From contig JARCMD010000061.1 of assembly GCA_030248885.1 (NCBI GenBank), positions 1-36,102 of the forward strand: a stretch of DNA of 36,102 nucleotides, in the 5' to 3' direction. Shown in pieces: positions 3,154 through 5,410 of the stretch. The notes under the pieces were generated by a model. The model saw nothing but the letters and a program-made list of their open reading frames with translations, was not told the origin of the DNA and did no database searches. Source of the stretch: Leptolyngbyaceae cyanobacterium MP9P1.79 (GTDB lineage Bacteria > Cyanobacteriota > Cyanobacteriia > JARCMD01). The position numbers and the translations under genes were made by a program. Numbering within the stretch: the first letter of the stretch is position 1; every line of letters begins with the position of its first letter.

Positions 3154-4359
3154 ATGACGAATTCTTCCTATCCCAAACGCTATCCCCAACGCGATGATGC
3201 CATCTTGGGCGGGCAAGCGGTTGCTCCGATCGGCGGCGCTGTCTTGGGGGGATTGGCGGGAGTTCAGGCGAGAGTGCATAGTCCCCTCGTCAGTCAACGC
3301 GTCAGGGCGCTGTCCGAAGCCCTGAAATATGGTGAGGCAGGGTTGGACGTGATTATCAATGCCGTGCGAGTCCAAGGGGGACGATCGCAGCGACGGGCTT
3401 ATTTTTTACTGCGGAACCAAGCCCATCCCAAAGCCAAGCAAGTCTTACAGGACATCAGCCCTTTTACTCTGTTCAATGCCAACAACACAGGGGCAGTGCT
3501 GAACAAGGTGTTCTGTCTTGCCATCAGTCCCGATGGACAAACTCTAATTAGTGGAGGCAGTGGAGCGCGACAAAATAGTGGGATTCGCATGTGGAACCTG
3601 GAAACGGGGCGACGATCGACCCTAGTAAAATCTGGTGCTACCCGATCGATCGCCCTCAGTGCCAATGGTCAGACCCTCATCACCGGTGGATTGAATGGCG
3701 CGGTGCAGGTGTGGGATTTATCCACAGGAGCATCAATTTCCACGTTGCAGGGGCATGGCGGTGAGGTGTTGTCGATCGCCCTGAGTCCCGATGGCGAAAC
3801 CCTGGCCACCAGCGGCAACAGTTGGGATCAGACGATCAGAATTTGGCACCTGCCAACGGGAGAACTGCGCCACACCTTGCGGGGCTATGGAGGCGAAATC
3901 GCCGCTGTAGTCATTGATCCCAGCGGTGAAACCTTGGTCAGTAGCAGCCACGACCACACCATTCGCCTGTGGAATCCGCGCACAGGTGAGCAACTCACTC
4001 AGCTTTTTGGGCATACTGCTTCAGTTAACTGCCTTGCCCTCAGTGCCGATGGCCGTACCCTGATCAGTGGCAGCTATGACAGTACCCTCAAATTTTGGGA
4101 TCTGCACACAGGGCGGCTGTTGCGAACCAATGCGGGCCAGAGTCGTGGGGTGACGGCGTTGACCGTGAGTCCAGAGGGATGGATTGCCAGTGGCAGCCAC
4201 GATCGCACGATCAAACTCTGGGATCGCACGGGAGCGCTCTTGTCCACCTTAGAAGGACACACAGGCACAATTTTTGCCCTAGCGTTTGTACCAGACAGTC
4301 AGATGTTAGTCAGTTGCAGTGCCGATCGCACCCTGCGATTATGGACACTACCAGAATAA
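3154..4359 (+). CDS. WD40 beta-propeller protein with N-terminal LGG/HEAT-like module
   Basis: 401 aa, predicted soluble, no signal peptide. Residues about 14-100 form a module starting DDAILGGQAVAPIGGAVLGG, then LAGVQARV and a HEAT-like helical pair (ALSEALKYGEAGLDVIINAV). The same kind of module starts the next gene. From about residue 113 there are seven WD40 units, each with a phrase like LAISPDGQTLISGG and a terminal (I/L)(R/K)(M/L/F)W, for example TIRLWNPRTGEQ and TLKFWDLHTGRL. Seven blades make one closed propeller. Such proteins are usually binding scaffolds; no catalytic residues are visible. It is followed after 79 nt by the GUN4-domain gene on the same strand, probably co-transcribed. 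Partner and process are unknown. Confidence 0.93.
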   Translation: MTNSSYPKRYPQRDDAILGGQAVAPIGGAVLGGLAGVQARVHSPLVSQRVRALSEALKYGEAGLDVIINAVRVQGGRSQRRAYFLLRNQAHPKAKQVLQDISPFTLFNANNTGAVLNKVFCLAISPDGQTLISGGSGARQNSGIRMWNLETGRRSTLVKSGATRSIALSANGQTLITGGLNGAVQVWDLSTGASISTLQGHGGEVLSIALSPDGETLATSGNSWDQTIRIWHLPTGELRHTLRGYGGEIAAVVIDPSGETLVSSSHDHTIRLWNPRTGEQLTQLFGHTASVNCLALSADGRTLISGSYDSTLKFWDLHTGRLLRTNAGQSRGVTALTVSPEGWIASGSHDRTIKLWDRTGALLSTLEGHTGTIFALAFVPDSQMLVSCSADRTLRLWTLPE

Positions 4360-4363
4360 TTCT

Positions 4364-4438
4364 CTTCCACCCTTCCACCCTTCACCCTCCACCCCTTCCA
4401 CCCTTCACCCTTCCACCCTTCCACCCTTCCACCCTTCC
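4364..4438 (+). repeat. Tandem octamer repeat TTCCACCC between two genes
   Basis: Runs from just after the WD40 stop (4359) to the base before the downstream ATG. The unit is TTCCACCC (4365-4372, 4373-4380, 4396-4403, 4411-4418, 4419-4426, 4427-4434), with seven-base variants TTCACCC at 4381-4387 and 4404-4410. The mRNA here is almost all pyrimidine and C-rich, with no purine-rich ribosome-binding site. This is a short tandemly repeated sequence of the kind common in filamentous cyanobacteria, and its copy number is likely to vary between strains. Confidence 0.9.
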
Positions 4439-5410
4439 ATGTCCCACGATTCACCCCAACCCGATGATGTCGTTCTAGGAGGACGCGCCCCTGCTCCCGT
4501 CGATGGCGTGATCTTGGGAGGATTGGCCGGGGTGAAGCGCCGTCTGGCTAGCGTCGATGAATCGATTCAGTTGGCGGCTTTGGCTGATGCTATGAAATAC
4601 GGAGATGCCGGGATCGATTTGGTAATTGACGCGCTCACCGATCCCTCAGAGCGGGTGTGGAAGAAAGCGGATAATCTGCTGCGATCGATCGATACCCCTG
4701 AAGTCAAGGAGGCATTGAGCCTATCGGAAATGCGGGCGCTAGCTGGGGTGAAGCGTCGGCTAGCCAACCCAAATGAAGACTTGAGAATTAGCGCCCTTTC
4801 GGAAGCCATGAAGCACGGCCCTGAAGGAATTGGTGTCGTCATCGCGGCTCTGAGAGATCCGTCAGAGCGGGTTTGGAAAACGGCCAATGCCCTGCTGCGG
4901 ACGGTGCCCGATCCCAGAGTAAAACAGGTATTGGCGCTGTTCTCGGCAGTGGGGATCAAATACACGGGGTTATCAGAATTACTGGCGGCGGGATGCTGGC
5001 TGGAAGCAGATTTCCAGACAAAGGAGGCTCTATACCAGATCTTTGGTCTTAACCCGCTACAGCAGTTTCGGGAGGCTTTAGTTGACAGATTGCCCTGTGA
5101 AGATTTGCAGATTATCGATCGCCTCTGGATGAAGCATAGTCATGGGCGGTTTGGCTTTAGTGTGCAAAAGGCAATCTGGAGCCAGTGTGCTGCCAGTCGT
5201 TGGGAAAAGGCGGAGGCGTGGATTCTGTTTGGCGATCGGGTGGGGTGGCGATCGAATTTGCCCTGGAATCAAAATCATTGGAAGCAGCAGGATGAAATTA
5301 CCTTCAACCTCCACGCACCTGCGGGTCATTTGCCCTATTTGGGCGACACCTTTGGCATCTTTACGATCGAAGCACTCTCAGCCCGACTGACAGCATGTGG
5401 AATTCATTAA
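4439..5410 (+). CDS. GUN4-domain protein with duplicated N-terminal HEAT-like module
   Basis: 323 aa from the ATG giving MSHDSPQPDD. The frame is open upstream to a GTG at 4319, but that would only translate the tandem repeat. The N-terminus has VVLGGRAPAP...VILGG as in the WD40 neighbour, then two copies of one ~66-aa unit (about 29-95 and 101-167), both starting LAGVKRRLA and containing AMK(Y/H)G and PSERVWK. Residues about 173-305 are a GUN4 domain: PCEDLQIIDRLWMKHSHGRF, then FGFSVQKAIW, FGDRVGWR and LHAPAGHLP. GUN4 proteins bind protoporphyrin IX and Mg-protoporphyrin and, in the canonical form, stimulate Mg-chelatase. This protein lies outside any chlorophyll operon, and the HEAT-like front suggests a paralogue with a regulatory or scaffold role (inference). 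Start choice is supported by alignment with the WD40 N-terminus, not by a ribosome-binding site. Confidence 0.9.
   Translation: MSHDSPQPDDVVLGGRAPAPVDGVILGGLAGVKRRLASVDESIQLAALADAMKYGDAGIDLVIDALTDPSERVWKKADNLLRSIDTPEVKEALSLSEMRALAGVKRRLANPNEDLRISALSEAMKHGPEGIGVVIAALRDPSERVWKTANALLRTVPDPRVKQVLALFSAVGIKYTGLSELLAAGCWLEADFQTKEALYQIFGLNPLQQFREALVDRLPCEDLQIIDRLWMKHSHGRFGFSVQKAIWSQCAASRWEKAEAWILFGDRVGWRSNLPWNQNHWKQQDEITFNLHAPAGHLPYLGDTFGIFTIEALSARLTACGIH

Follow-up and report, generated by a model that had tools for sequence, protein, structure and literature searches.

A shared N-terminal domain of adjacent cyanobacterial WD40 and GUN4 proteins is the probable docking piece of a modular system

Introduction

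In eukaryotes, F-box proteins and comparable substrate receptors possess a short shared N-terminal docking domain and interchangeable WD40, LRR or other recognition domains, and serve one machine. Effector-associated domains (EADs) belong to chaperone- or GTPase-cored conflict systems and are defined by two features, the presence of a copy on a core component and the close kinship of neighbours, copies in adjacent genes being more closely related to each other than to any other copy (Kaur et al. 2020, PMC7159879). Here we describe a small domain, referred to as the adaptor, that is common to the N-termini of a WD40 protein and a GUN4 protein encoded side by side on a contig of Leptolyngbyaceae cyanobacterium MP9P1.79 (assembly GCA_030248885.1, contig JARCMD010000061.1, positions 1 to 36,102). 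This whole stretch of 36,102 nucleotides is called the window. A shared small domain on varied proteins together with a chaperone core is a known kind of arrangement; as far as could be checked, the present case includes parts that lack an earlier description.

Other described proteins resemble parts of this arrangement. GUN4_N (PF16416) is an ARM-like domain that lies ahead of the Gun4 core, Ycf46 and Ycf35 (DUF1257) are AAA+ and DUF1257 proteins of cyanobacteria and red-algal plastids, and the STM4011-STM4015 radical-SAM cluster is recorded in NCBIfam. We found no description of the adaptor, or of the gene set that accompanies it, in a literature search that mostly did not reach subscription papers and preprints. 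We present evidence that the shared N-terminal domain probably serves as the docking piece of a modular system that lacks an earlier description, and that its presence is linked to a particular set of AAA+ and Hsp70-type genes.

Results

The WD40 and GUN4 proteins of the window share an N-terminal domain

The N-termini of the two proteins align without gaps over 89 amino acids, with 45% identity and 70% positives (BLASTP, E 2e-24), a likeness far beyond chance. The WD40 protein opens with DDAILGGQAVAPIGGAVLGGLAGV and the GUN4 protein with DDVVLGGRAPAPVDGVILGGLAGV; a helical unit bearing ALKYG or AMKYG, respectively, then follows, and the full N-termini read MTNSSYPKRYPQRDDAILGGQAVAPIGGAVLGGLAGV...ALKYG and MSHDSPQPDDVVLGGRAPAPVDGVILGGLAGV...AMKYG. 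Common to both is the pattern DDxxLGGxAxAP...LGGLAGV joined to a HEAT-like unit, in agreement with the initial annotation, which had proposed from the sequence alone that one adaptor is carried by both proteins. The same annotation held that the unit is doubled in the GUN4 protein. Two helical units are indeed present there (E 3e-14 for the alignment of the second); the doubling does not extend to the D-x-x-LGG tail, which unit 2 lacks. These three units of the WD40/GUN4 pair are the only adaptor copies recovered in a search of the window genome (G000; 4.9 Mb, 552 contigs, about 89% complete). The adaptors of the two proteins lie 1.6 apart on the adaptor tree, and a recent duplication of the N-terminus from one of these neighbours to the other is ruled out. 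An adaptor profile matched both window proteins and hundreds of others.

Conserved LGG motifs distinguish the adaptor from a plain HEAT repeat

The adaptor comprises about 90-100 amino acids, has no enzymatic features, and occurs on varied proteins that are often encoded side by side. The N-terminus of the WD40 protein matched no Pfam or NCBIfam model, with HEAT_2 absent even at E<=10, and that of the GUN4 protein remained under the curated cut-offs of both HEAT_2 (PF13646) and GUN4_N (Table 1). Among 70 diverse adaptors, 27 matched HEAT_2 and 19 matched GUN4_N at E<=0.01, the best GUN4_N match having an E-value of 6e-8. AlphaFold2 predicts stacked helix pairs in both window proteins, at residues 28-36, 41-67, 71-82, 87-108 and onward in the GUN4 protein and as listed in Table 1 for the WD40 protein. 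Judged by its family matches, the helical part of the adaptor is HEAT/ARM-like, with the LGG part as an addition, and because of these same matches it may share descent with GUN4_N; a common origin of the two is plausible. Unlike GUN4_N, the adaptor carries the LGG tail, and most adaptors are not fused to GUN4; in the window, the GUN4 protein falls short of the GUN4_N cut-off and the WD40 protein has no match to it.

The LGG motifs are at least as strongly conserved as the helices. Across 121 adaptors, the D, L, G and G of motif 1 are conserved in 100%, 91%, 99% and 92% of sequences, and the L, G and G of motif 2 in 95%, 100% and 100%. In 163 of 187 proteins the two motifs together cover 19 residues, and in most adaptors the motif lies 5-20 residues from the protein start. 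In the AlphaFold2 models of both window proteins, motif 1 lies in a low-confidence tail outside the helices and motif 2 at the start of helix 1. Invariant residues at a fixed spacing in a tail predicted to be unfolded suggest a motif that may fold upon binding a partner.

These features bear on the possibility that the adaptor is a plain HEAT- or GUN4_N-like repeat that was spread by local duplication and has no partner of its own, its co-occurrence with other genes reflecting shared ancestry. The sub-threshold HEAT_2 and GUN4_N matches and the predicted helical pairs are what such a repeat would display. The conservation of the LGG motifs, one of them outside the helices, speaks against it and marks the LGG part as distinct, in line with the LGG/HEAT-like adaptor of the initial annotation. 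A recent duplication of neighbouring copies is also unsupported by the adaptor tree, adaptor presence tracks an AAA+ gene within families and genera, and DUF1257 genes stand beside adaptors with many kinds of C-terminus (see below). We regard the plain-repeat explanation as very unlikely.

The adaptor can also be internal, in the arrangements receiver-adaptor-receiver (L150) and receiver-adaptor (L158). Because internal copies exist, the adaptor is a domain rather than a cleaved leader, and a leader peptide of the double-glycine type or of the type found in ribosomally synthesized and post-translationally modified peptides is rejected. Both receiver fusions (L150:5521-6762 and L158:1697-2443) lie close behind an Hsp70-like gene, and the receiver domains offer a possible phosphorylation input.

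The adaptor is widespread in cyanobacteria and is fused to many C-terminal domains

Adaptor matches were found in 72 of 242 genomes of the cyanobacterial class. In 64 the match is convincing; the other eight (G024, G050, G052, G093, G155, G196, G206 and G224) are weak and probably HEAT-only, and were set aside before the association tests. A contig scan of 84,980 species, for which a closer set of 12 adaptors was the query since the 70-adaptor alignment was too diverse, returned 136 relatives. The best 78 of these 136 loci are all cyanobacterial and include Microcoleus, Nostoc, Calothrix, Pseudanabaena, Leptolyngbya, Coleofasciculus and other genera. No adaptor relative was found in IMG/VR viral contigs or in phage records, and a mobile phage module was ruled out on this ground. 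The adaptor is present on six cyanobacterial plasmids, one of them conjugative; a tblastn search of plasmids with the full WD40 protein matched propellers and not the adaptor. On the conjugative plasmid, pNe_3 of Nostoc edaphicum (L250, 5995-7825), a GUN4 adaptor gene is followed by a SUMF1/FGE-type gene; since this pair sits on a conjugative plasmid, adaptor modules can move.

The adaptor is nearly always N-terminal, and the 213 distinct adaptor proteins carry at least ten kinds of C-terminal part, as grouped by single-linkage BLAST with Pfam searches of representatives. WD40 (68 proteins), STM4015-type LRR (39), FGE-sulfatase (32) and GUN4 (25) are the larger groups, followed by an acidic family without a Pfam hit (21), pentapeptide (8), HEAT-like (5) and LRV (3) proteins and by single cases such as TPR, receiver, LamG and PspA. 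Tandem arrays are frequent, with up to ten adaptor genes at one locus (L040). Within that array (L040:12525-17875) the acidic proteins, of 270-350 amino acids with the pattern GDxIYxVYxSxxxYDDxYY..., occur in up to six consecutive copies, and similar proteins are encoded at L041, L042, L044 and L045; none of the family members tested had a Pfam or NCBIfam match in its C-terminal domain. In Microcoleus-related loci (L060:76-2466, L130:7960-10350 and L135:7963-10353), a 797-amino-acid protein, assigned to the FHA type by eye, adjoins FGE-type adaptor genes.

Several arrays (L040-L045) surround genes of the STM4011-STM4015 cluster, and STM4015-family LRR proteins, among the commonest adaptor C-termini, bear the adaptor there. 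The genes for STM4014 (ATP-grasp), STM4013, STM4012 and STM4011 (radical SAM) lie within the adaptor arrays at L040:7381-12502 (G072:C16) and at L041, L042, L043 and L045. This arrangement raises the idea that the STM4011-STM4014 enzymes handle the LGG tail as a leader or substrate sequence. STM4011 scored over its cut-off in 13 of the 242 genomes, only 8 of which are among the 64 adaptor genomes, and the remaining 56, the window's included, are without it. The cluster is thereby ruled out as a general partner, and given also that the adaptor can be internal, such a leader or substrate role is extremely improbable.

Neighbouring adaptors are not closest relatives

The adaptor tree tracks the type of C-terminus, with 28 changes compared with 98-113 when labels are shuffled. 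Adaptors of neighbouring genes are 1.2-1.9 apart on this tree. The order seen in the window, with the WD40 gene first and the GUN4 gene next on one strand, is repeated at L048 and L051-L056, and Nostoc has related pairs. Because the tree follows C-terminal type and the members of WD40-GUN4 pairs are not each other's nearest relatives, the pair is old rather than the product of a recent duplication.

Recurrent gene order and tandem arrays with differing C-terminal parts would also be expected if the adaptors of neighbouring proteins bind each other, bringing WD40 and GUN4 proteins into one complex in which the chaperones only set a threshold; EAD systems likewise join chaperone cores and shared small domains (PMC7159879). 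Like EADs, the adaptor is a small non-enzymatic domain found on neighbouring proteins with different fusions; a genome carries several paralogs, a chaperone core driven by NTP lies nearby, and GUN4, FGE-type and repeat domains are among the fused parts. Unlike EADs, none of 286 adaptor open reading frames also matches AAA+, DUF1257, Hsp70 or GrpE-like models, and neighbouring copies group by C-terminal type rather than with each other. The core described below is Ycf46-like AAA+/DUF1257/GrpE-like/Hsp70-like, whereas EAD cores are MoxR-vWA or GAP1. None of the adaptor fusions seen involves a caspase, peptidase or TIR domain, and the adaptor itself has no Pfam match. Since core fusion and neighbour kinship, the two features that define EADs, are both absent, we exclude strict EAD membership. 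By analogy the adaptor may nevertheless work as an EAD does; coupling through adaptor-adaptor contacts seems to us unlikely.

A chaperone-like gene set accompanies the adaptor

Four gene families recur within three positions of adaptor genes: DUF1257 (Ycf35-like, 26 loci), Hsp70 (18), Ycf46-like AAA+ (16) and a GrpE-like coiled-coil protein (11). DUF1257 genes adjoin adaptors of seven C-terminal types, and when 35 adaptor genomes were compared by hand, 13 of them, from seven families, had a DUF1257 gene no more than 5 kb from an adaptor gene; by a rough estimate, less than 1% per adaptor gene would be expected by chance. At L058 a single array in one direction encodes an AAA+ protein, a pentapeptide adaptor protein, DUF1257, a second pentapeptide adaptor protein, a GrpE-like protein and Hsp70. 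The four core genes also stand together without an adaptor alongside in two genomes (G013 and G046), which identifies them as one unit.

We named the adaptor-linked AAA+ and Hsp70 proteins Ycf46B and Hsp70B and searched the 242 genomes with profiles of each. Scores separate at the cut-offs used, at least 800 bits for Ycf46B (lowest accepted 807, next 717) and at least 530 bits for Hsp70B (lowest accepted 537, next 451). Adaptor and Ycf46B are both present in 62 genomes and both missing from 177, with two genomes having the adaptor only and one Ycf46B only (nominal Fisher value 3e-54); for Hsp70B the corresponding counts are 61, 176, three with the adaptor only and two with Hsp70B only (nominally 6e-51). 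The genome with Ycf46B and no convincing adaptor is G155, which has a weak adaptor hit. In each of the six families in which presence varies (f11, f14, f16, f17, f24 and f32), Ycf46B follows the adaptor, with G155 as the sole exception, and it does so without exception in all six variable genera (g14, g17, g35, g70, g84 and g85). At least three DUF1257 copies are found in 51 of the 64 adaptor genomes and in 23 of 170 genomes without the adaptor, whereas DUF1257 in general is present in 241 of the 242. Taken together, these counts strongly support a link between the adaptor and a Ycf46B/Hsp70B-type gene set.

The AAA+ alignment retains GIQGTGKS and a Walker B motif of the CVLWIDEID type. Ycf46B and the accompanying DUF1257-B belong to the same families as canonical Ycf46 and Ycf35, and in the window genome another Ycf46-like gene adjoins another DUF1257 gene (L238). 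Unlike the canonical proteins, Ycf46B and DUF1257-B are extra paralogs, and hardly any genome without the adaptor has Ycf46B. In the window genome they are encoded side by side on contig C119, with Hsp70B on C182.

The window and its GUN4 domain

The features of the pair are collected in Table 1. A longer reading frame for the GUN4 gene, starting at GTG 4319, was discarded in favour of ATG 4439, because most of its 40 additional residues derive from the CTTCCACC repeat. The other window genes that were checked are housekeeping genes (rpoB, rpoC1, rpoC2, hisD, ppk, RelA/SpoT on the other strand, and a DUF3352 gene).

The GUN4 domain is far above its cut-off of 29.2 bits and its structural match has a Foldseek probability of 1.00 (Table 1). 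It is not the best Gun4 match of the genome, scoring 115 bits against 218 for C26:12579. Seven GUN4 domains are encoded in this genome, in open frames of 149-568 amino acids, and C26:12579 alone scores as Gun4 proper, which is a cofactor of Mg-chelatase. PADLOC returned generic matches only: the AAA+ protein to IetA, the propeller to HEAT-ARM_XIII and the GUN4 domain to the end of PD-T4-6. The last of these, between window positions 4946 and 5377, has an E-value of 8e-34; because the GUN4 domain matches its C-terminal part, the PD-T4-6 defence profile appears to contain a GUN4-like region.

Table 1. Coordinates of the WD40/GUN4 pair in the window (pLDDT, predicted local distance difference test, from AlphaFold2 models)
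Feature	Position	Strand	Basis
WD40 protein, 401 aa; N-terminal LGG/HEAT-like adaptor and WD40 propeller	3154..4359	+	Open reading frame; WD40 Pfam matches; mean pLDDT 89.7
WD40 protein, motif 1 DDAILGG, residues 14-20, in predicted disordered tail	3193..3213	+	Sequence; pLDDT <50 at residues 17-22
WD40 protein, motif 2 VLGGLAGV, residues 30-37, just before and into helix 1	3241..3264	+	Sequence; model helix 33-41
WD40 protein, HEAT-like helical unit, residues 33-100	3250..3453	+	Predicted helices 33-41, 46-73, 76-87, 92-100; no Pfam match
WD40 beta-propeller, residues 108-398	3475..4347	+	Pfam matches; AlphaFold2 model
Intergenic CTTCCACC tandem repeat, 9.8 copies of 8 bp, between WD40 and GUN4 genes	4364..4439	+	Protein only with GTG 4319 start
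GUN4 protein, 323 aa, ATG 4439 start	4439..5410	+	Open reading frame; mean pLDDT 86.3
GUN4 protein, motif 1 DDVVLGG, residues 9-15, predicted disordered	4463..4483	+	Sequence; pLDDT <50 at residues 12-15
GUN4 protein, motif 2 ILGGLAGV, residues 25-32, just before and into helix 1	4511..4534	+	Sequence; AlphaFold2 model
GUN4 protein, HEAT-like unit 1, residues 29-95	4523..4723	+	Alignment; AlphaFold2; sub-threshold GUN4_N, 21.2 bits vs cut-off 24.3
GUN4 protein, HEAT-like unit 2, residues 101-167, without LGG tail	4739..4939	+	Alignment; sub-threshold HEAT_2, 26.0 bits vs 27.7
GUN4 domain PF05419	4946..5377	+	113-115 bits, over cut-off; Foldseek Gun4 1z3x E 5.9e-9

Discussion

We propose that the adaptor is the docking domain of a cyanobacterial modular system with an AAA+/DUF1257/Hsp70-like machine and interchangeable heads, a proposal to which we give an even chance. 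The adaptor consists of D-x-V-L-G-G in a tail predicted to be mostly disordered, a second V-L-G-G at a near-fixed distance, and a short HEAT-like unit resembling GUN4_N. The putative machine would comprise the Ycf46-like AAA+ protein Ycf46B, a DUF1257 protein of the Ycf35 type, and proteins resembling Hsp70 and GrpE; its AAA+ and Hsp70 family members suggest that it carries out ATP-driven remodelling. Adaptor-bearing proteins would dock on this machine through the LGG tail and the HEAT-like unit, and their variable C-termini (WD40, LRR, pentapeptide, FGE/lectin-like, GUN4, TPR and others) would be interchangeable recognition heads that decide which ligand or target the machine works on. The window pair would supply two such heads, a propeller that binds protein and a domain that binds tetrapyrroles. 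The domain, its fusions, its co-occurrence and its gene neighbourhood are observed and its shape is predicted; what we infer is that docking is physical, in which direction the system acts and which biological task it serves.

The initial annotation had the adaptor recruit effectors to a common partner. That the domain is shared is confirmed, and the idea of one partner fits the AAA+/DUF1257/Hsp70-like set, which supplies a candidate; the interpretation is partly supported, with recruitment in a physical sense as its hypothetical part. The term effectors was a guess, because most of the attached domains are binding or scaffold domains.

A different direction of action would apply if the adaptor-bearing proteins are clients rather than receptors, the LGG tail being the tag by which the machine engages, unfolds, remodels or folds them. 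An AAA+ machine could grip motif 1 in its predicted disordered N-terminal tail, GrpE-like and Hsp70-like genes accompany the AAA+ gene, and the attached domains are mostly repeat or scaffold folds that may need help. Yet a simple tag would need neither a folded HEAT-like unit nor a pair of motifs at near-fixed spacing, the adaptor can be internal, and the compact GUN4 and receiver domains are not known to have any special folding need. We therefore consider a client tag somewhat unlikely.

Several points weigh against the docking proposal. Two draft assemblies (G009 and G225) have the adaptor without an intact Ycf46B, the G225 copy containing stops, and in the window genome, as in many others, the machine genes are located in other parts of the chromosome. 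The candidate partners were drawn from neighbourhood counts rather than from an unbiased scan of all genes. The Ycf46B and Hsp70B cut-offs were chosen after the score gaps had been viewed, and are subject to ascertainment bias because the profiles were built mainly from adaptor-adjacent copies. The Fisher values are too extreme because the genomes are related, 20 of the 64 belonging to one genus. Finally, our choice of recognition heads, over clients or outputs, as the role of the C-termini is guesswork based on the kinds of domain present.

The proposed docking arrangement recalls the F-box proteins. The comparison is one of analogy, involving neither a sequence relation nor a ubiquitin ligase, and we raise only tentatively the possibility that the adaptor is a docking box on many heads serving a dedicated AAA+/DUF1257/GrpE-like/Hsp70-like machine, a prokaryotic counterpart of interchangeable substrate receptors. 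If so, fusion of the box to a new head would let a cell widen the range of targets and signals open to the machine.

The adaptor is a widespread and promiscuous domain without a Pfam or NCBIfam entry that is tied, in one phylum, to a specific chaperone-like gene set. If the docking proposal is correct, it would provide a role for the extra Ycf46, Ycf35 (DUF1257) and Hsp70-like paralogs of cyanobacteria, and would explain why WD40, LRR, GUN4 and FGE-sulfatase proteins are encoded side by side in these organisms. The pair in the window would tie a tetrapyrrole-binding domain to the machine, and the vague class of WD40 repeat proteins would become a system that can be tested and whose candidate machine has a name.

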